This document shows positions 5,706 to 14,380 of a DNA stretch of 34,146 bases, one piece after another. The stretch is from Acidobacteriota bacterium (GTDB taxonomy: Bacteria > Acidobacteriota > Vicinamibacteria > Vicinamibacterales > UBA8438), in the NCBI GenBank assembly GCA_021296485.1, contig JAGWAI010000003.1, positions 1 through 34,146 of the forward strand. The letters are read 5' to 3'. A program made the position numbers and the translations under genes. Each line of letters starts with the position of its first letter. Within the stretch, counting starts at the first letter, position 1. The notes under the pieces are model-generated. The model was not told where the DNA came from and did not search any database. It saw only the letters and a list, made by a program, of their open reading frames with translations.

Positions 5706-6500
5706 ATGGAAAAAGAGCGACCCACCGTCGCCGTAGAACCGGCCGAACCGGAAGTACAGCCCGCTCCCGCGCCGGCGCCGCAACCGCCCGGACCGGGGCG
5801 CACCGCCGCGCTCGTGGAGGTCATCCTCTGCTCCGGCTTTCCCACGCAGCTCGCGGTCGCCGCGGGCCTCGTAATGGTGGGCATCACGCCAGGCGCCGGG
5901 GGCGCCGGCGTGCTCAGCCTGTCGTACGTCGTTGCCCTCTCCCTCACCGACACCGTCCTGTTGATCGGTCTGATTGCCTATTGCCTGCGGCGCCACGGGG
6001 AACAACCGACCGCAGCCTTCCTCGGCGCGCGGCCGCAGCTCCGCGAGGTGCGACTCGGACTGCTGCTCGTGCCTGCGGCCGTCGTGCTGGCGACGGCCAC
6101 CCTGGGCATGCTGCACACGTTCTGGCCCTGGATCAGCAACGTGCCCGAAAACCCCATCGAAGCGCTCATCCGCTCGCCCCGCGACGCCCTGATCCTGCTT
6201 GCCGTGGCCGTCGTGGCGGGCGGGATCCGCGAGGAGGTGCAGCGAGCCTTCATCCTGCGCCGCTTCGAGCAGCGCCTCGGCGGCGGCTGGGTGGGTCTCG
6301 TCGTCTTCAGCGCCGCCTTCGGCCTGGGACACTACATCCAGGGCTGGGACGCCGCGATCGTGACGGCGATGCTGGGAGCGCTCTGGGGGGCGCTGTTCCT
6401 GTTGCGGCGCAGCGTCGTGGCGCCGATGGTCAGCCACGCTGGTTTCAACGCGACCGAGATCCTGCTCGCGCTCGCCGGCGCCGGCGCACTTCAGGGTTGA
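5706..6500 (+). CDS. CPBP family intramembrane glutamic protease (Rce1/ABI-like)
   Basis: A multi-spanning membrane protein of 264 residues. A Pro/Ala/Glu-rich cytosolic N-terminus of about 30 residues precedes about seven hydrophobic segments. The three CPBP motifs are intact: EExxR (Glu176, Glu177, Arg180), FxxxH (Phe205, His209) and HxxxN (His244, Asn248). These residues form the active site in the ABI/Rce1 superfamily, which includes the CAAX prenyl protease Rce1 and bacterial bacteriocin self-immunity proteins. The native substrate is unknown. The ATG at 5706 has no clear ribosome site. The gene ends 10 bp inside the 3' end of the convergent SurA-like gene. It stands alone on its strand. 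Confidence 0.9.
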   Translation: MEKERPTVAVEPAEPEVQPAPAPAPQPPGPGRTAALVEVILCSGFPTQLAVAAGLVMVGITPGAGGAGVLSLSYVVALSLTDTVLLIGLIAYCLRRHGEQPTAAFLGARPQLREVRLGLLLVPAAVVLATATLGMLHTFWPWISNVPENPIEALIRSPRDALILLAVAVVAGGIREEVQRAFILRRFEQRLGGGWVGLVVFSAAFGLGHYIQGWDAAIVTAMLGALWGALFLLRRSVVAPMVSHAGFNATEILLALAGAGALQG

Positions 6501-7213
6501 TTTCCGGCCGGCGGCAGACGGTTCACCTGCCCGCGCCGGACGAGTCCCTCGACCCACTCGCCGACCAGTGCGGCCCGGTGCTCCTCCGCGTAGCTGCGCA
6601 GCACAAACGGACGCGCCTCTCCGAATGGCAGCGGACGGCCGCCTTCGACGAATTCGTCGCGGCGCTCGTCATAGTACGCGCGGAGCTGTTCCTCGCTCGG
6701 AGCCGGCACGGCCCCGAACCGATTCTCCAGATACACTTCCAGCCGCAGGTCGTCCCGCAAGACCTGCAGCAGGTCGTCGCGGGAGAACCCCACGCGCGCG
6801 AGCGCGGCCTCGAACGCCGCCTCCGAGGGAAAGCGCTCGGCTACCGCGGCCATCCGGCGCTCCACACCGGCGGGCGGCGGGTCGGCGGCGACGTAGCGGT
6901 CGACTTCGTCGAGCACGAGACGGCGCTCGATCAGGTAGGTCAGCACATCATCCTGCGAGCCGCCTCCAACCCCGTTGTCCGCGGCCGGCAACTGGAGATC
7001 GACGAAGGCCCGCACGTCCGACTGCAGGATCACGTGGCCCGCGACAATCGCCAGGATCTGATCGAGCGCCTCGGCCTGGCCCGTCCACGCGACCGCGGGA
7101 CCGCCGGCGAACGTGATGCATCCGCAGAGGAGGACGAACAGGCGGACGCTAGAACGCCTGTCCGATGCTGATGTGCAACGCGGTGAGCCGTTCTCTTTCG
7201 CGGTTCGGACCAC
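6491..7213 (-). CDS. SurA-like periplasmic chaperone domain protein without PPIase domain
   Basis: About 240 residues. A basic n-region and a hydrophobic stretch (VRLFVLLCGCITFAGG) form a signal peptide. The mature part begins with a DQILAIVAGHVILQSDV segment typical of the N-terminus of SurA-family chaperones, followed by helical repeats and a YYDERRDEF segment. The parvulin PPIase domains of full SurA are absent. GTG 7213 is chosen because AGGAA lies 8 nt upstream; it overlaps the 3' end of the Omp85 gene by 65 bp. The position right after tamB and omp85 suggests a helper role for outer-membrane proteins in the periplasm. The family call is good; the exact function is inferred. Confidence 0.75.
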   Translation of the reverse strand: MVRTAKENGSPRCTSASDRRSSVRLFVLLCGCITFAGGPAVAWTGQAEALDQILAIVAGHVILQSDVRAFVDLQLPAADNGVGGGSQDDVLTYLIERRLVLDEVDRYVAADPPPAGVERRMAAVAERFPSEAAFEAALARVGFSRDDLLQVLRDDLRLEVYLENRFGAVPAPSEEQLRAYYDERRDEFVEGGRPLPFGEARPFVLRSYAEEHRAALVGEWVEGLVRRGQVNRLPPAGNQP

Positions 7214-10115
7214 TGCCGAGTTCCTGCCGGTCGAGCTTGAAACCGAGGTCGACACGGATCGGCCCGACCGGTGACCGGTAGCGGACGCCGAAGCCGATGC
7301 CACCCCGAATACGACCCAGGCTTATGTTGCTGATGTGATCGTACACGTTACCGCCGTCGAGAAATCCGACCACGCCGAGTTCGCGCGTGACCGGCACGCG
7401 CACCTCGCTGTTGAGGATGACGACGGCGTTCCCGCCCTGCGGAAACCCGTCGGCGTCAATAGTGGCGCCCGGCCGGCCGGCTGGAATGCCGAGCCGGTCG
7501 AATGCGTAGCCGCGCACGGTCGTGTCGCCGCCCGCGAAGAACCGCTCGCTGATCGGCAGCAGCGGGTTCGAGCCCACCGCTCCCTGCGGAAAGCCTACCG
7601 CGATCCCGAGGCGCACGCCGGCGGCGAGGACGATGCGCCGCATGCCGGGCATCCGCCGGTAGATGAATGCCTGCGTGAACGCCTTGGCGAATCCCACCTC
7701 GGAACCGATGGCGCGCGCCGCCACCCGCGCGTCGATGCTCAATACCTCCCCGGCGGTCGGGTCCACCACATCGTCGCGCGTATCGCGGAGCAGACTGCCG
7801 CTGAAGGACGACAGCCGCACCTTCTCGAAGAGCCGATCGACGAGCGGCACGTCCTCCGGGTTCAACTGCACGTTGGACGTGTCGTTCTTGCCCCACGAGT
7901 AGCCGACGCTCGTGCTCAGCCAAGGCGTCACCTGACCGCGCGTCTCGGCGTTGAATCCGCGGCTGAACAGGTCGAATCCGGGTCGGATTGCTTCCTCGAC
8001 GAATCCGGTCACGAACAGATCCAGGTCCGACCCGAACGCCCGCGGCTCGGTGTACGTGCCGAGGACGCGGTACTCGTTGAAGCCGAATCCGGCGTTCGCC
8101 TCCGCGGGTGCGAGCAGCACCGGGTCGTTCTGGCGGCGCACGCTGACGCGCGTGAACAGGTCGATCGACCGGTTCTTGCCCCACAGGTTGCGGCGGCCAA
8201 TCTGCACGAAGCCGCGCGGCGCGAACTCGAGCTGCTCGACCGCCTGGCTCACGCCCCGCCCGGCGTCGGTGACGCGCCGCAGGCGCTGCGACACCTCGAT
8301 CCCGCCACCGTACGCGAGCCGCGTGGCGGCAGCCTCCTCGACGACCACCACGACATCGCGGCGGTCGCGGCGGCCGTGACTGAACTCCCGGATATCGATG
8401 CGGCGGAACAGCCCGAGCGCATTGAGCCGCCGGCGCGTCTCCGCCACCGCCGAGAGACCGAGCGGCTCACCCTCCTCCAACGTGATCTCGCGGCGGATGC
8501 TGGTCGGCGAGATCGTCTCGTTGCCGGCTATGAGGATGTGCTCGACGAGGGTCTGCGGCCCCTCCACGATGCGGTACGCCAGATCGACAGCGGTAAGGCT
8601 GTCGTCGAAGCGCGGCTCGACCGTCACGACCGCCCGGTCGTACCCGGCATCGAGGTACAGCGCGTGGATGCGATCGCGGTCCGCGGCCACCTGGCGGGCG
8701 AAGTACGCGCCCCCGGCCTCCGATTCCATCGTCGCGACCAGTTCGCTGCCGCTGCGGAACCGGCTGCCTTCGACCACTATCGACTGCACGGTCGCCCGCG
8801 GACCCTCCACGATGTCGATCGTGCAGACCACGCGGACGATTGCGTCGGGCGCATCGCCGGCCGACGGCAACTCCACGACGCGCGGCTCGACCCGCACCGT
8901 GGCGTACCCGAGGCGGCGATAATGCTCGGCGACCAGGTCCGCGCTGACGTCGAGATCCCGCATCACGAGCGGGGAGTCCGGCTCCACCGCCACCAGCGGC
9001 AACAACTCCAGCTCGGGGACGGCGGCGTTGCCGGCGAACGCGATTCGCTCGATCCGGTAGGGGCGCCCCTGCTCCACCGTGAACACGAGCGACAACCCCT
9101 CGCCCGCTGCCTCGCGGGCATGCGTCACGACCGCGTCCCGGTAGCCGCGGTCCTGCAGCAGACCCGAGATGCGCCGGTCGGCGTCCTCCAGCAGGTCCTC
9201 GTCGACGGAGCCTTCCCGCTCGATCGGCACCAGCACGTCGAGGTCCGCGTCCACCACCTCGTCTCCGGCCAACTCGACGGTGATTTGCGGGCCATGCCGC
9301 ACGTCGAGAATCAGGTGCACGAGCCCGCCGCCGTCCATCACCTCGATCTCGTGCCGCAGACCGATCTCGTAGTAGCGGCGGCGGCGCAACTCCGCTTCGT
9401 AGTCGCGCAGGCGGCGGTCGATGTCCCGGCCGTCGTACGGCATCCCGCGTTCGAGTCCAAGACGATCCAGGATCAGCGGATACATGGTGGCCGAGACGCC
9501 GCGGACGGTGAACCGATCGATCCGCACGCGGCTCCCCGGGCGCACCTCCACCCGCAACGCCGGCTGGGCGCCGCGGCGTTCGACGCGGGTGTCCACGGCC
9601 GCCGAGAGGAAGCCGCGCTCGCGGTAGAAGCGCCTGAGCGTATCGGCCACCGCCGGCGCCTGATCGGGGCGGAACACCGGCCCGTGCGCATCGGTGACGG
9701 CGCGCCGCACCGCGGCGGCGGAGACCCCCGCCCGCCCGTCGATCTCGATGCGCTCGATGATCTGCAGCGGCGCCAGGGAATATCGCAGCACGACGCCGTC
9801 GGTCCCCACGCGGCCGTCGACCGCGACGTTTTCGAAGCGGCCGAGGCTGAACAGATGGGTAACGCTCTCGCGGACCTGGCGCATCGAGAGCGGCTCGCCG
9901 ACGCGGGTCTCCACGAGCTCGAGGATCGCCTCGTCGCGCAACGCGATGCCGTCGCTCACCAGTTCGACATCGACCACCGGCTTGCCGACAAGATCGTCGA
10001 GCCCCGCCGCCGACGCGGGGACGGCGCCGGCCGCGGTCAGCAGCACGCCGAGCGCAATGGCACGCCACGGCGAGCGCCGCGGGAGCGCACACGGAAGGCG
10101 AACCGCGGTGCGCAT
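7149..10115 (-). CDS. Omp85-family outer membrane assembly protein (BamA/TamA type) with seven POTRA domains
   Basis: A 988-residue outer-membrane protein. The signal peptide ends near PASAAG (about 37). Seven POTRA-like units follow, at about 45-115, 117-194, 196-275, 277-350, 352-438, 440-518 and 520-594. Each closes with a pattern like 'V.V..G' and opens with '..I..I.I.G'. The Omp85 barrel covers about 600-988 and carries the signature VRGY (867-870) in a GGDTTVRGYAF context. The chain ends in Phe, as expected of an outer-membrane beta-signal. E. coli BamA has five POTRAs and TamA three. The ATG at 10115 overlaps the tamB stop (TGATG). The tamB neighbour suggests a TamA-like role, but size and domain count are closer to BamA. 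Confidence 0.93.
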   Translation of the reverse strand: MRTAVRLPCALPRRSPWRAIALGVLLTAAGAVPASAAGLDDLVGKPVVDVELVSDGIALRDEAILELVETRVGEPLSMRQVRESVTHLFSLGRFENVAVDGRVGTDGVVLRYSLAPLQIIERIEIDGRAGVSAAAVRRAVTDAHGPVFRPDQAPAVADTLRRFYRERGFLSAAVDTRVERRGAQPALRVEVRPGSRVRIDRFTVRGVSATMYPLILDRLGLERGMPYDGRDIDRRLRDYEAELRRRRYYEIGLRHEIEVMDGGGLVHLILDVRHGPQITVELAGDEVVDADLDVLVPIEREGSVDEDLLEDADRRISGLLQDRGYRDAVVTHAREAAGEGLSLVFTVEQGRPYRIERIAFAGNAAVPELELLPLVAVEPDSPLVMRDLDVSADLVAEHYRRLGYATVRVEPRVVELPSAGDAPDAIVRVVCTIDIVEGPRATVQSIVVEGSRFRSGSELVATMESEAGGAYFARQVAADRDRIHALYLDAGYDRAVVTVEPRFDDSLTAVDLAYRIVEGPQTLVEHILIAGNETISPTSIRREITLEEGEPLGLSAVAETRRRLNALGLFRRIDIREFSHGRRDRRDVVVVVEEAAATRLAYGGGIEVSQRLRRVTDAGRGVSQAVEQLEFAPRGFVQIGRRNLWGKNRSIDLFTRVSVRRQNDPVLLAPAEANAGFGFNEYRVLGTYTEPRAFGSDLDLFVTGFVEEAIRPGFDLFSRGFNAETRGQVTPWLSTSVGYSWGKNDTSNVQLNPEDVPLVDRLFEKVRLSSFSGSLLRDTRDDVVDPTAGEVLSIDARVAARAIGSEVGFAKAFTQAFIYRRMPGMRRIVLAAGVRLGIAVGFPQGAVGSNPLLPISERFFAGGDTTVRGYAFDRLGIPAGRPGATIDADGFPQGGNAVVILNSEVRVPVTRELGVVGFLDGGNVYDHISNISLGRIRGGIGFGVRYRSPVGPIRVDLGFKLDRQELGSGPNRERERLTALHISIGQAF

Positions 10116-13100
10116 CAGAATGCGTGTCTCACGCGGAAGTCGAGAGCGTAGGTGCGGTCTTCGTTCTGCGAAAGGACCCACGACAGGCGGTCGTTCTGGT
10201 CGTACTCGAGCACGACGATGATGTGCTGGTTGGCGCCGGTGAGGGTGCGGGACAGCGTCACGTGCGCCCGCTCGGAGATCCGCTTGCCGATGAGCAGGCG
10301 TGCGGTCGGCAGCAGTTGGGCCGACTGCTGCGCCGACGGATCCACCAGCGACGGCGTTATCTGGAAGGTGTCGATGCCGAACGAATTCCTGACGACCCGG
10401 CCGACACCCGACGAAAGCGGCGTGGTCAGCAGCCGCGCGGCGCCGGCCTGGAACAACTCCTGCCTAGACGCGTCCTGCGCCCGCAGCGTGCGCAACTCGG
10501 CCGCCTGCGGATCCCGGATATTGCCCAGCAGCAGCGACATGATTTCGAATTCGGGCAGCGGCGGGTCGGACGAGAGCTCGAATTCGAGGCGGTCCATCGT
10601 TCCCGCCAACCCCAGCGTCACGCGGTACGTCTGGCCGGGGGTGCGCACGTCGGTCTCCGCCTCGACGTCGAACACCGGTTCGATTTCAGTGGGATCGGCG
10701 AACGCGATGCTGCCGCGCGTGACGCGATAGCGATTGCCCTCGAAGAACACCTCGCCGTTCTCGATCTCGGCGTTGCCGAACAACAGCGGACGCGTATACG
10801 TGCCGCCCAGCGTGAGCTCGGCGCTCGACACCACCCGCGCGGCGTTGTCGCTGATGCGCAGGCTCGAAGGGGCGCTGATCCGGACGTCGAGCTGGAGCGG
10901 GAAGGCCGGTTCGATGGGATCGGGCGCCGCAACCGCTTCATCCGCGCCGACGTCGAACAGACCCGGGCCCGAACCGAACAGCTCCAGCAGGATCGCGTCG
11001 CGCACGCTCACCGCGCCGGAGAGCACGGGCGCCTCCAGCCCGCCCCCGAGCGTCAGCTCGGCGTCCACCAGCGAGCGGATGCCCTCCGGGAAGCGCAGTC
11101 GCATCCCCGTGCCGACAGCGGTGACGTTCATGCCGCCCACTTCGTATCCCTGCACGTCGACGCGCCCGCCGAAGCGGAGCGTCCCCGTTCCCAGTTCGCC
11201 GCTCAGGTCGTCGAGCCGGATGCCGCCCGGCTCGAACACGATGTTCCCCTCGATGTTCTCGAGACTGTGCGGAAACGACAGGTGGCGCAGCCGGCCGCCG
11301 TCCAGCACGGCCTCCCCGCTTACCTGCGGCTGGTCGAACGTGCCGCCGATCTCCGCAACGAGCGTGGCGTTACCCGAGCTGCGCACGTCCGGAAAGAACT
11401 CCTCGAACAGCGCGAGACCGGTGTCGCCGCTCAGGCTCAGGTCCAGGCGCTGGTCTCCCAGGCCGATCTCGCCCGCCAGATCCAGCACCGTACCGTCACC
11501 CGCCAGCCGCATCTGCTCGATGCCGACCACGTTGCGGTCCAGCTCGAAACGCACCGTGCCGGCGTTGCGCACGGAATAGCCGTAGATGTCGAGACCCAGC
11601 TGCTCGACGGTGGCGACGACCTGCAGTTGCTCCATGTCGCGCAACACGCCGGTCACCTCCAGCGTGCCGCTCACCTCGGCGGCGAGCCGGTCCGACAGCT
11701 CGGGTCGAAAGGCGCGGATGTACGGGTCGATCGTCGTGTTCGTGAAGCGGAACAGCAGTTCCGATTGCGTCGTTGCCAGCGCGACCCGTCCGGAGGCGGA
11801 CAGCGCGCCCTGCAGCGAGGCCGCTTCCGCCTCCAGGCCCATCACCCCGCCGCGCACGTCGAGCCGGCCGGATATCTGACCCACCTCTTCCCCGTCGATG
11901 GTCAGATCGCGGACCAGGCCGCGCACTTCGTAGCGCGGATCATCGAATGCGCCGACGCCCTCCACCGTGAACTGCGCAACGCCTCCGAGCGGCGCATCGG
12001 CGAATCGCGCAGCGTCGATGTCGGCGACGGCTATGCCGCGTCCGTCCGCGTTGAACGAGTAGGTCCCGTCCCAGCCGATAAACGCGGCGCCGGTCACCGA
12101 GCCGCCCGCCTTCTCCACCTCCAGCCCGTCGAGCCGGACGCCGGTGCCTTCGAATCGCAGGCCGGCGCTTGCCGATTCGAACGACTCGCCGTACGCCACC
12201 GGCTCGCGCAGCGTCAGCCGCCCCACGCCGTACGGACTGCGGTAGCGGCCGAACAGCCGTATCTCGCCGTTCAGCGCGCCGCTGATGTCGTAGCCGCTCA
12301 GGCCGAACGCCTGGCGCACGCGTTCGGCCGGAAACGACGCCAGACCGAAGCTGGCATCGATCTCGTCCCCGCCGTCGTCGCGGCTGCCGATCGTGAACCG
12401 TCCGTCGACCTGAAGGACCGCGGCGTCCCGCTCGAAGCGGCCGCCCATGACGTCGAGATAGGCATTCTCGACCGTGATCGTACCGCGGCCGGCGCCCCAC
12501 GACACGTTCCACGCCTCGATATCGCGTCCTTCGAACTCCGCCTCGATGCGCGGCGAAGCGAAGGTGCCGAGCATCACGCCGTCGAGGCGCCCGTGACCGC
12601 CGACGGCGATCTCGCCCGTCGGCACCCCGAACGCGGTCAGCGCCGCGGCCATCAGCCGGTCGCTCTCCTGCCAATCCGCACTCGTCACGCTGAACGGAAT
12701 GCGTGAATCGCCGCCGTACGCCGTCCATCCTTGAAACCGGATTTCCGTATTTGGCGTGGCCAGCCGCCCCGGTTCTATCTCAATCCCCTCCGGCGTGATC
12801 GAATACGTGACCTCGCCGCCCACCGGAAACGACCAGGGCGCCCCGTCCGGCGCGAACGGCGCGGCTGCATACGCCGCCCGCGCGGCGGCCGGGCGCGGCG
12901 CTGCGGCGGTCATCAGGCGCACGCCTGCGGCTGGAACGGCCGCCAGCCGCCCCTCTCCGTTGCGGTCGGCGAAGCTGCCAATCGGCCACTGCAGCAAATT
13001 GCGCCCGCTGATGCGGGCCGCCGGCCGGACACCCGATATGGCCAGCTTGTCGAGCAGCGGCTCCAGGTCCACGTCGCGGTAGCGCACATCGAATGCCGCC

Positions 13101-14380
13101 AGGCCCGGCTTCGTCTTTCCCAGGGGCTTCATCGAGTAGTCGAAGTCGAGGTCGCCCCCGTAGAAGCCGGAGCGCGCGTCGAATACCTCGAAACGATCGG
13201 GGGCCCACACGATCGAACCTTCAATCCCGGGAAATCCCAGGTCATTGAAGGTCGTGTCGGCCCCGTGGAAACGCCCGGTGAGCTCGTGCCCGCCGTCGAA
13301 GATGTGCCAGGCGCCCGTGAACGAGGCGCGGCCATCGACGGTGAAGTTGTCGCCGGCAAAGAAGATGTCCTTCATCGGCGGCAGCTCGATGTCCGACTCG
13401 ATGATCCGATACGTCTGCTCGGGCCAGTTCAGCAGGTCGACCTCGCCCGTCAGCCGCGAGGTGAATCCGGCCATGGTCAAGTTGATGCGGGTCAGGTCCA
13501 CCTGCCCGCCGTCGAGCTCGTAGCTGGCATCCATGTCCGCGGTCATCGGCTCGAACGAGCCGATCTGGATCGTGCCTCCGCTGAACGAGACATCGCCGCG
13601 GTACTGGTCCCGCTTGGCGATCGTCAGGTCGATGTTGCGCGCCGTGACGTCCCACGGCGCATCGTGGTCGCGGAAGACGAATTCGCCGTCGCTGGCGACC
13701 AGATGCCGCAGCGTTGTCACGATCAACCGCTCGGACTCCTCCGCGGCCGGTCCGGCGGCATCGGCGTCGACTACAGCCGGGGCATCGGCATCGTCGGGCC
13801 GCTGGGGAGCGAAGGGCGGAAAGCTGTGCCGGCCGTCCGGAAAGCTCTCCACCAGCATCCGCCAGTTCCGCATTTCCGCGCCGTCAACCAGGATCTCGCC
13901 GCCCAGGAGGGCAATCCACGACATCGTCACGACAATGCGTTCCGTAACGAGGAACGGCTCGTGGCCGGGCTCCAGGCCGTCGATGACCAGGTCCTCGACG
14001 AGGAAGCGGCCCGGCACCAGGTAGCTCCCGAGGCGCCCGATGCGCACCGGCCGCTCGAGCTGCGCCGACGCCGCCCGCTCGGCCTGGGCGCGCACCGCGG
14101 GCCCCAGGTCGATCGTCACGAAGGAGACCAGCGCGGCGGCGACGAGCGCGCAGACGGCGAGGACGGCGCGGCGCGTATAGCGAGGCAGGCTGGCCGCCAG
14201 CCGCGACCAGCGGCTCCGCGGACCAGGTTCCGGCTCCGACTCCGATTGCGGCTCCGGCTCCGGCTCGGGTTCCGCCACCTGCGCTTCCGGAGGATCCGCG
14301 GCGGGCGGATCACCCGCCGGCGCGGCGTCCGACTGCGGGGTCGGATCTCCGATCGGCTCGTCAGTGGGTTCGTCCGGCAT
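10115..14380 (-). CDS. tamB: translocation/assembly module protein TamB (AsmA-like, DUF490)
   Basis: A 1421-residue envelope protein, longer than the 1259 of E. coli TamB. A Pro/Glu-rich cytoplasmic tail of about 60 residues precedes one transmembrane helix (about 72-91). A very long region of repeating beta-strands then spans the periplasm, and the conserved DUF490 C-terminus follows, with LLLGNIRDPQ, SFGIDTFQI and a terminal Phe. Such proteins form hydrophobic-groove bridges proposed to move lipids, and partner with TamA/BamA-type Omp85 proteins. The neighbouring omp85 start overlaps its stop, so the two are probably made together. The start at ATG 14380 follows an AGGGG ribosome site and overlaps the TAA of the biotin carrier gene (TAATG). 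Confidence 0.93.
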   Translation of the reverse strand: MPDEPTDEPIGDPTPQSDAAPAGDPPAADPPEAQVAEPEPEPEPQSESEPEPGPRSRWSRLAASLPRYTRRAVLAVCALVAAALVSFVTIDLGPAVRAQAERAASAQLERPVRIGRLGSYLVPGRFLVEDLVIDGLEPGHEPFLVTERIVVTMSWIALLGGEILVDGAEMRNWRMLVESFPDGRHSFPPFAPQRPDDADAPAVVDADAAGPAAEESERLIVTTLRHLVASDGEFVFRDHDAPWDVTARNIDLTIAKRDQYRGDVSFSGGTIQIGSFEPMTADMDASYELDGGQVDLTRINLTMAGFTSRLTGEVDLLNWPEQTYRIIESDIELPPMKDIFFAGDNFTVDGRASFTGAWHIFDGGHELTGRFHGADTTFNDLGFPGIEGSIVWAPDRFEVFDARSGFYGGDLDFDYSMKPLGKTKPGLAAFDVRYRDVDLEPLLDKLAISGVRPAARISGRNLLQWPIGSFADRNGEGRLAAVPAAGVRLMTAAAPRPAAARAAYAAAPFAPDGAPWSFPVGGEVTYSITPEGIEIEPGRLATPNTEIRFQGWTAYGGDSRIPFSVTSADWQESDRLMAAALTAFGVPTGEIAVGGHGRLDGVMLGTFASPRIEAEFEGRDIEAWNVSWGAGRGTITVENAYLDVMGGRFERDAAVLQVDGRFTIGSRDDGGDEIDASFGLASFPAERVRQAFGLSGYDISGALNGEIRLFGRYRSPYGVGRLTLREPVAYGESFESASAGLRFEGTGVRLDGLEVEKAGGSVTGAAFIGWDGTYSFNADGRGIAVADIDAARFADAPLGGVAQFTVEGVGAFDDPRYEVRGLVRDLTIDGEEVGQISGRLDVRGGVMGLEAEAASLQGALSASGRVALATTQSELLFRFTNTTIDPYIRAFRPELSDRLAAEVSGTLEVTGVLRDMEQLQVVATVEQLGLDIYGYSVRNAGTVRFELDRNVVGIEQMRLAGDGTVLDLAGEIGLGDQRLDLSLSGDTGLALFEEFFPDVRSSGNATLVAEIGGTFDQPQVSGEAVLDGGRLRHLSFPHSLENIEGNIVFEPGGIRLDDLSGELGTGTLRFGGRVDVQGYEVGGMNVTAVGTGMRLRFPEGIRSLVDAELTLGGGLEAPVLSGAVSVRDAILLELFGSGPGLFDVGADEAVAAPDPIEPAFPLQLDVRISAPSSLRISDNAARVVSSAELTLGGTYTRPLLFGNAEIENGEVFFEGNRYRVTRGSIAFADPTEIEPVFDVEAETDVRTPGQTYRVTLGLAGTMDRLEFELSSDPPLPEFEIMSLLLGNIRDPQAAELRTLRAQDASRQELFQAGAARLLTTPLSSGVGRVVRNSFGIDTFQITPSLVDPSAQQSAQLLPTARLLIGKRISERAHVTLSRTLTGANQHIIVVLEYDQNDRLSWVLSQNEDRTYALDFRVRHAF

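Follow-up and report, generated by a model that had tools for sequence, protein, structure and literature searches.

A stretch of 34,146 nucleotides from an acidobacterial genome (contig JAGWAI010000003.1, assembly GCA_021296485.1; the whole stretch is referred to below as the window) carries on its reverse strand the adjoining genes for a TamB protein, an Omp85 protein with an arm of seven POTRA units and a small SurA-like protein. TamB and an Omp85 partner also form the translocation and assembly module (TAM) of E. coli. The source is a Vicinamibacteria-type acidobacterium, whose genome (2.38 Mb, 88% complete) encodes, on another contig, a second TAM in which TamB, POTRAs and barrel are joined in one frame. 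It is this single-chain TAM, and not the window operon, that a specialist would not expect; the window feature itself is largely known and is a member of a described kind. In the labels used below G stands for genomes, L for fetched loci and C for contigs, G000 being the genome of the window.

The window operon

The interval 7149–14380 consists of precisely omp85 and tamB (Table 1). The overlap between the omp85 start and the tamB stop, pointed out in the initial annotation, amounts to one shared base (TGATG). The ATG of tamB overlaps the stop codon of the upstream gene likewise (TAATG), the product of which contains a biotin/lipoyl-attachment domain (PF00364, E 5.6e-20), and the GTG of the SurA-like gene (7147) lies one base beyond the omp85 stop. 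Among 20 relatives, for which the starts were chosen mechanically, tamB and omp85 overlap in 16; an ATG placed as in the window is the nearest omp85 start in 12 of them, and a TTG three bases earlier in four. The operon link of the window Omp85 with TamB is thus present at the level of the genes, as an overlap, and the three genes form one apparently translationally coupled operon.

The AlphaFold2 model of the Omp85, calculated for the single protein from a 16-row alignment (mean predicted local distance difference test score, pLDDT, 78.8; predicted template modelling score, pTM, 0.58), shows seven consecutive beta-alpha-alpha-beta-beta units ahead of a barrel in which we count 16 strands of at least 10 residues. 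The seven POTRA units proposed initially are therefore all seen in the model, and they align in all 20 orthologues: in an alignment of the window protein with 20 orthologues of the same genus, family and order, each POTRA segment is at least 94% filled in every fetched orthologue (21 of 21 rows with the window). In most rows conservation is highest in POTRAs 1, 4 and 7, and POTRA 4 is well conserved despite the weak modelling of its first half. The Pfam profile PF07244 finds seven stretches in the window protein at E ≤ 1 and five at E ≤ 0.01, and between three and seven at E ≤ 0.01 in the orthologues (19 of the 20 scanned, L046 being left out).

Heinz et al. 2015 (PMC4494059) report Acidobacteria with a second BamA that branches with TamA, some copies having seven POTRAs and the operon order BamA-TamB, and express doubt whether POTRA 3/4 is genuine. 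The window protein shares with these the status of second Omp85, the seven POTRAs and the TamB neighbour, but its gene order is tamB-omp85-surA-like and its model supports all seven POTRAs. The initial annotation had let the novelty of the arm depend on the same count not being described already in relatives, and on that measure the arm is not novel. The word SurA does not occur in the main text of PMC4494059. What is new for the window is the opposite gene order, the support by the model for all seven POTRAs and a SurA-like gene kept in 20/20 fetched relatives; the gain is a modelled answer to the doubt over POTRA 3/4, together with a conserved chaperone-like gene.

The SurA-like gene adjoins omp85 in all 20 relatives (L043–L062, the 20 pairs from a 40-genome set, with the window SurA-like protein as search query) and is on the same strand in 19, which bears out the proposal of a three-gene envelope module. 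The exception is L048 (positions 1278–2354, genome G006), where the SurA-like match runs on the other strand, towards the omp85 stop. A gap of ~0.7–0.8 kb is found at the SurA-like gene in L053 and L060. Among Solibacter/Bryobacterales-like loci the gene lies between omp85 and tamB in four (L116, L121, L141, L142), while in L124 the gene order is that of the window.

A profile of 25 SurA-like members (A4; L062 and L048 left out) matches SurA in the PDB with a best E of 6.6e-8; the match extends over the N-domain and, less strongly, over the C-terminal strand. At E ≤ 0.01 Pfam detects SurA_N in five of the 25 members, SurA_N_3 in four and Rotamase_2 in five; the window protein has no match in NCBIfam and a short, weak one to Rotamase_2 (46 residues, E 0.014). 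The N-domain core of SurA is therefore present, whereas a full parvulin peptidyl-prolyl isomerase (PPIase) domain was not found and alignment A4 contains no stretch of PPIase length. The third gene is read here, from its sequence relationships, as a SurA chaperone core that would feed the seven-POTRA arm, and this neighbour suggests protein clients for the window TAM.

Table 1. Features of the tamB-omp85-surA-like operon (window coordinates)
Feature	Position	Strand	Remarks
tamB	10115..14380	-	1421 aa, ATG at 14380; Pfam PF04357 E 3.2e-38
TamB C-terminal domain (PF04357, formerly DUF490)	10157..11203	-	profile search of genome
tamB stop codon	10115..10117	-	last base is first base of omp85 ATG (TGATG)
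omp85	7149..10115	-	988 aa; seven POTRAs and barrel; TamA-type by tree
POTRA 1 (residues 46-116)	9768..9980	-	AlphaFold2 secondary structure
POTRA 2 (residues 122-192)	9540..9752	-	AlphaFold2 secondary structure
POTRA 3 (residues 198-274)	9294..9524	-	AlphaFold2 secondary structure
POTRA 4 (residues 278-348)	9072..9284	-	AlphaFold2; first half low confidence, block pLDDT 58-65
POTRA 5 (residues 353-436)	8808..9059	-	AlphaFold2 and Pfam
POTRA 6 (residues 442-517)	8565..8792	-	AlphaFold2 secondary structure
POTRA 7 (residues 523-594), adjoins barrel	8334..8549	-	AlphaFold2 secondary structure
Omp85 barrel, 16 strands	7152..8324	-	PF01103 E 2.8e-39 and AlphaFold2
SurA-like periplasmic chaperone gene	6491..7147	-	218 aa, GTG start; SurA N-domain and C-terminal strand

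Affiliation of the window Omp85

Four Omp85 matches are found in G000: a BamA on C46, the window protein on C2, the fusion protein on C66 and a propeller protein with a weak barrel match on C8. The search for a second Omp85 beside skp, suggested at the outset as a way to recognize a TamA-like protein, led to the C46 BamA (P0008; 462.7 bits with TIGR03303), which is followed by an OmpH/Skp gene (PF03938, E 4.9e-19). The skp/lpx neighbourhood typical of BamA thus belongs to the C46 protein and not to the window Omp85, in line with a TamA-like window protein. The gene after skp (L005:6791-8062) combines a FabA-like domain and an LpxA-type hexapeptide acyltransferase in one protein (PF07977, PF00132, PF13720). 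The C8 protein (L007:3587-6706) matched PF01103 in the genome search (E 3.4e-8) and lacked this match in the later Pfam scans; it shows propeller-type matches (DPPIV_N, PD40), no Pfam POTRA match, and a resemblance to the WD40-Omp85 group of Heinz and Lithgow 2014 (PMC4104836).

The phylogeny of the barrel sets the window Omp85 apart from BamA. In a quick tree of 75 rows, built from the last 460 residues (last POTRA and barrel), with support by the Shimodaira-Hasegawa-like approximate likelihood ratio test (SH-aLRT), the window protein falls in a 21-row clade (SH-aLRT 100). This clade joins other acidobacterial TamB-linked Omp85 proteins and the fusions (49 rows, SH-aLRT 97), and the next clade (58 rows, SH-aLRT 99) adds TamA proteins of three-POTRA size together with rows from Bacteroidota, Calditrichota and Desulfobacca. 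Most members of the 58-row clade are TamB-linked, and BamA falls outside. The TamB tree, from which L046 was left out, contains the same three groups: the window type (20 rows, support 99), the fusions (22 rows, support only 18) and the classic tamA-tamB type (8 rows, support 98), which includes E. coli TamB and three rows from other phyla. Because the grouping runs parallel in the two trees, TamB and its partner Omp85 seem to have moved through evolution as pairs.

A 16-strand barrel with a POTRA arm, the link to TamB and the grouping with TamA/TamL rather than BamA all lie on the TAM side, and the best supported reading of the window Omp85 is that of a TamB-dedicated protein of TamA type. 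Of the two roles proposed initially, that of a TamB-dedicated exporter with an extended periplasmic arm is favoured by the tree, the gene overlap and the separate BamA, while a combination of the BamA and TamA roles is made less likely by that BamA and by the barrel tree.

The window TAM resembles that of E. coli in its Omp85 barrel, POTRA arm, TamB partner and shared operon, but E. coli has three POTRAs and the order tamA-tamB (PMC12800296), as opposed to seven POTRAs and tamB-omp85; the second TAM of G000 is one chain, that of E. coli two. In Borrelia, where BamA-TamB form a hybrid BAM-TAM (PMC13382580), TamB likewise partners an Omp85 with more than three POTRAs, but this is the five-POTRA BamA itself, while in G000 BamA is separate. 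TamL of Bacteroidota, also an Omp85 with a TamB partner, differs in being a lipoprotein with three POTRAs (PMC12045153). In the barrel tree the Bacteroidota row, from Gaoshiqia and presumably a TamL, falls with the three-POTRA TamA proteins of Acidobacteriota.

The single-chain TAM

The TamB search of G000 returned matches on C2 and C66. On C66 (L006:7607-14239) TamB, POTRAs and Omp85 barrel lie in one uninterrupted frame of 2210 residues, in which Pfam places TamB at 1101–1438, three POTRA stretches, and the barrel at 1913–2210. Along the chain TamB precedes Omp85; the window operon has this order too, and E. coli (tamA-tamB) has the reverse. The C-terminal half was modelled with AlphaFold2 for L063, a close relative of the C66 protein (pLDDT 80.1, pTM 0.71); the model shows TamB sheets up to residue 349, a low-confidence linker at 353–363, five POTRAs and a barrel with 16 strands by our count. 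A hydrophobic stretch within the first 110 residues of 60 fusion frames (hydropathy median 2.6, lowest 0.78) would, as expected, fit the membrane anchor of TamB.

TamB and Omp85 share one frame in 13 of the 40 genomes of the relatives set, G000 included, two of the 13 running off a contig edge; the eleven full-length fusions align end to end, junction included, and the junction is alignable across families. Among the best 80 loci of a scan of 265 relatives, many from the same assemblies as the G genomes, 54 have TamB and barrel in one frame, with two more (L094, L103) in which TamB is cut by the contig edge and which were excluded from the list; eight have them as separate genes, and 16, some cut by contig edges, have no detected TamB. 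Alignment A3 contains 46 of the 54 listed fusion loci. A profile of these 46 fusion halves, with at most two candidates scored per genome so that the counts are lower bounds, yielded at least 93 matches that are near full length and lie in a single frame. At least 88 of the 396 acidobacterial genomes sampled contain them, with 34 families represented; 85 of the 93 frames have 1900 residues or more. Two fusions come from assemblies of a single contig, that of G094 (5.99 Mb) and that of G362 (4.11 Mb, with completeness estimated at 74%).

Outside the Acidobacteriota, the gammaproteobacterium Povalibacter uvarum DSM 26723 (L095:8818-15615) has a frame of 2265 residues with Pfam TamB, POTRA and Omp85 matches, besides a separate TamB frame of 1265 residues. 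In L095 the fusion adjoins a patatin-domain gene on the other strand (PF01734). The Povalibacter fusion groups with an acidobacterial fusion in the barrel tree (SH-aLRT 100), and among 147 genomes of its order and 398 of its phylum, both sets including Povalibacter, it alone reached the cut-off, from which we infer that it was probably acquired by horizontal transfer. The searches in other phyla used full-length matches at E ≤ 1e-100 and the best two to five first-look candidates per genome, so that they are weak evidence for absence. They gave no full-length fusion in 188 genomes of the phylum of G426 or 148 of that of G425, and none in 198 of that of G424, where the empty result carries no weight. 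In 398 genomes of the phylum of G423 the one match was Povalibacter, itself part of the query.

Several candidates were rejected. The long frames of G982 and G986 proved on closer look to be separate tamB and omp85 frames, and the stretch fetched for the 2902-residue frame of G432 holds a tamB frame and a separate omp85 frame. Spread to Cyanobacteria (L106), Acidimicrobiia (L087) or Sulfopaludibacter (L072), as their NCBI names would have it, was not accepted as evidence, since the order to which the window belongs includes genomes with frames equal in length.

When the 22 fusions were forced into one clade, the E. coli TamA row having been dropped beforehand, the likelihood was 15.5 units above that of the free tree (p-value of the approximately unbiased test 0.735). 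A single origin of the fusions is compatible with this test, which does not prove it. It is judged somewhat probable that TAM exists in one lineage of Acidobacteriota as a covalent chain of ~2,000–2,400 residues, reaching from an inner-membrane helix to an outer-membrane barrel, and that this chain arose once by fusion of tamB and omp85, reached a gammaproteobacterium by at least one transfer and functions with no free TamB C-terminus, the part that builds the hybrid barrel of E. coli TamAB.

A natural TamA-TamB fusion was not found described in the literature searched, subscription papers and preprints lying mostly outside its coverage. The string "fus" is absent from the main texts of PMC11014939, PMC13382580 and PMC12800296, as are "fused" and "fusion" from that of PMC12045153; the main text of PMC4494059 has "fus" twice, in passages that mention Fusobacteria and not protein fusion.

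It is an open question for TAM whether its two proteins have to remain associated and whether TamB connects the two membranes permanently. With a natural single-chain TAM the ratio would be set at 1:1, the bridge would be covalent and TamB would have no free C-terminal strand, so that such a TAM offers a ready-made test of the hybrid-barrel model of 2026. We know of no other protein with one end in the inner and the other in the outer membrane.

Proposed action and alternatives

In the proposed mechanism TamB, anchored in the inner membrane, would move lipid, unfolded outer-membrane proteins or both along its hydrophobic groove, the C-terminal domain of TamB would dock on the distal part of the long POTRA arm, and the SurA-like protein would pass clients to this arm. 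The barrel may then open laterally, with the terminal strand of TamB, which ends in Phe, augmenting barrel strand 1. Such an arrangement is seen in the cryo-electron microscopy structure of E. coli TamAB, where the last TamB strand pairs with strand 1 of TamA and the end of TamB folds inside the barrel (PMC12800296). A C-terminal Phe is found in 20 of 21 separate TamB proteins of the window type, that of the window included, and in E. coli TamB, which matches this strand pairing. In the second TAM the C-terminus of TamB leads through a short hydrophilic linker into the first POTRA of the same polypeptide, which is presumed to stay uncut and would reach from a predicted helix in the inner membrane to a barrel in the outer membrane. 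In the fusions the last TamB strand lies inside the chain, ahead of the linker to POTRA 1. This leaves two possibilities, a POTRA arm that bends back and brings POTRA 1 close to the barrel, or a TAM in which no hybrid barrel forms.

The window is best read as encoding a dedicated TAM (TamB, a seven-POTRA Omp85 of TamA type and a SurA-like chaperone with no full PPIase domain) that would work as proposed, with a second, single-chain TAM elsewhere in the genome; this reading has a probability of about 0.77. Several observations weigh against this reading, which is computational throughout. Docking of TamB on the POTRAs lies outside the AlphaFold2 model, run on the Omp85 alone, and the 13 separate TamB proteins of other groups, E. 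coli included, end in Phe in six cases, in Tyr in two and in other residues in five. The Pfam SurA match of the SurA-like window protein as a single sequence is below the cut-off (E 0.0097). The window Omp85 narrowly passes the NCBI BamA equivalog model TIGR03303 (298.4 bits against a cut-off of 297.15), the best stretch being in the POTRA region; it does not pass the TamA model NF047950 (89.8 bits against 625) and is far under the cut-off of the TamL model (82.5 bits). Three POTRAs are typical of TamA and five of BamA, and the window protein with its seven corresponds to neither. The tree behind the TamA-type assignment is a quick one, and the E. coli TamA branch is so long in it (2.58) that its position is unsure; "TamA-type" therefore rests on the acidobacterial tamA-tamB copies and on the rows from other phyla.

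Both TAMs of G000 could instead serve mainly to bridge the membranes for lipid, in which case the Omp85 would be a port for docking at the outer membrane and not a protein insertase. TamB has a hydrophobic groove, and transport of phospholipids is reported for E. coli TamAB (PMC12800296). The lipid permease MlaE, moreover, has one match each in G000, G001 and G011, at ~4.6, 4.6 and 1.6 kb from the fusion, and is also near the fusion in L070 and L107; this proximity is weakly suggestive of lipid traffic for the fused TAM. However, of 10 genomes searched eight have MlaE and only three, from two genera, have it near the fusion, and of 72 fusion loci, duplicates included, seven contain an MlaE frame and only 36 extend for 5 kb to both sides. 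The window copy lies beside a SurA-like chaperone, which points to protein clients, and we consider mainly lipid-bridging TAMs doubtful. Two of the MlaE genes close to a fusion are at L006:2366-4006 and L033:12788-14919, and the MlaE protein of G000 has an N-terminal BON domain.

Cleavage at the linker might also turn the 2210-residue protein, as a precursor, into an ordinary TamB and an ordinary Omp85. The fusion linker is short, and Gly, Ser, Arg and Pro are often abundant in it, a composition that processing sites can share. Between the TamB and POTRA profiles lie 11–38 residues (median 16) in 70 fusion frames, duplicates included, and 11–24 in 59 of 60 listed frames, the exception being L105 with 38; no conserved motif was seen in the linker by eye. 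The hydropathy of the junction over 15 residues reaches at most 1.19 (median 0.23) in these 70 frames, while the N-termini of 20 separate Omp85 proteins, with mechanically chosen starts, reach 1.41–2.58; no hydrophobic, signal-peptide-like stretch, and thus no internal signal peptide, is seen at the junction in any of the 70. A single-chain TAM as proposed here has a TamB domain and an Omp85 barrel in an uninterrupted frame with no internal signal peptide, as the fusions do, and would exist in the cell as one uncut protein. Processing into two proteins is therefore regarded as unlikely, and a single-chain TAM is preferred.

A further alternative, that the window Omp85 is a second general assembly factor sharing the jobs of BamA and TamA, agrees with its bare pass of the BamA cut-off and with BamA-like POTRAs in greater number than in TamA. 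Foldseek with the window model matched BamA and TamA structures (best E 6.8e-47) and ranked BamA first, which is expected for a long POTRA arm. The far higher-scoring BamA beside the OmpH/Skp gene, the grouping of the barrel away from BamA and the overlap of the omp85 start with the tamB stop make a shared job quite improbable, and favour the TamB-dedicated role.

That the fusion is an assembly or frameshift artefact, which could be suspected as most of the genomes are metagenome assemblies, is rejected as having next to no likelihood, given the two single-contig assemblies and Povalibacter uvarum DSM 26723, the uninterrupted frames across 34 families and the alignable junction.

Some further arrangements of tamB and omp85 were encountered. 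Some relatives (L154, L155, L156 and L158) have, besides the seven-POTRA pair, a third type of TAM in which a short Omp85 (frames of ~650–720 residues) is followed by tamB. Omp85 frames of ~900–1000 residues also occur outside Acidobacteriota (L168; phylum of G425), beside tamB in L166–L169. In G982 the tamB and omp85 frames are in phase, with one stop codon between them.

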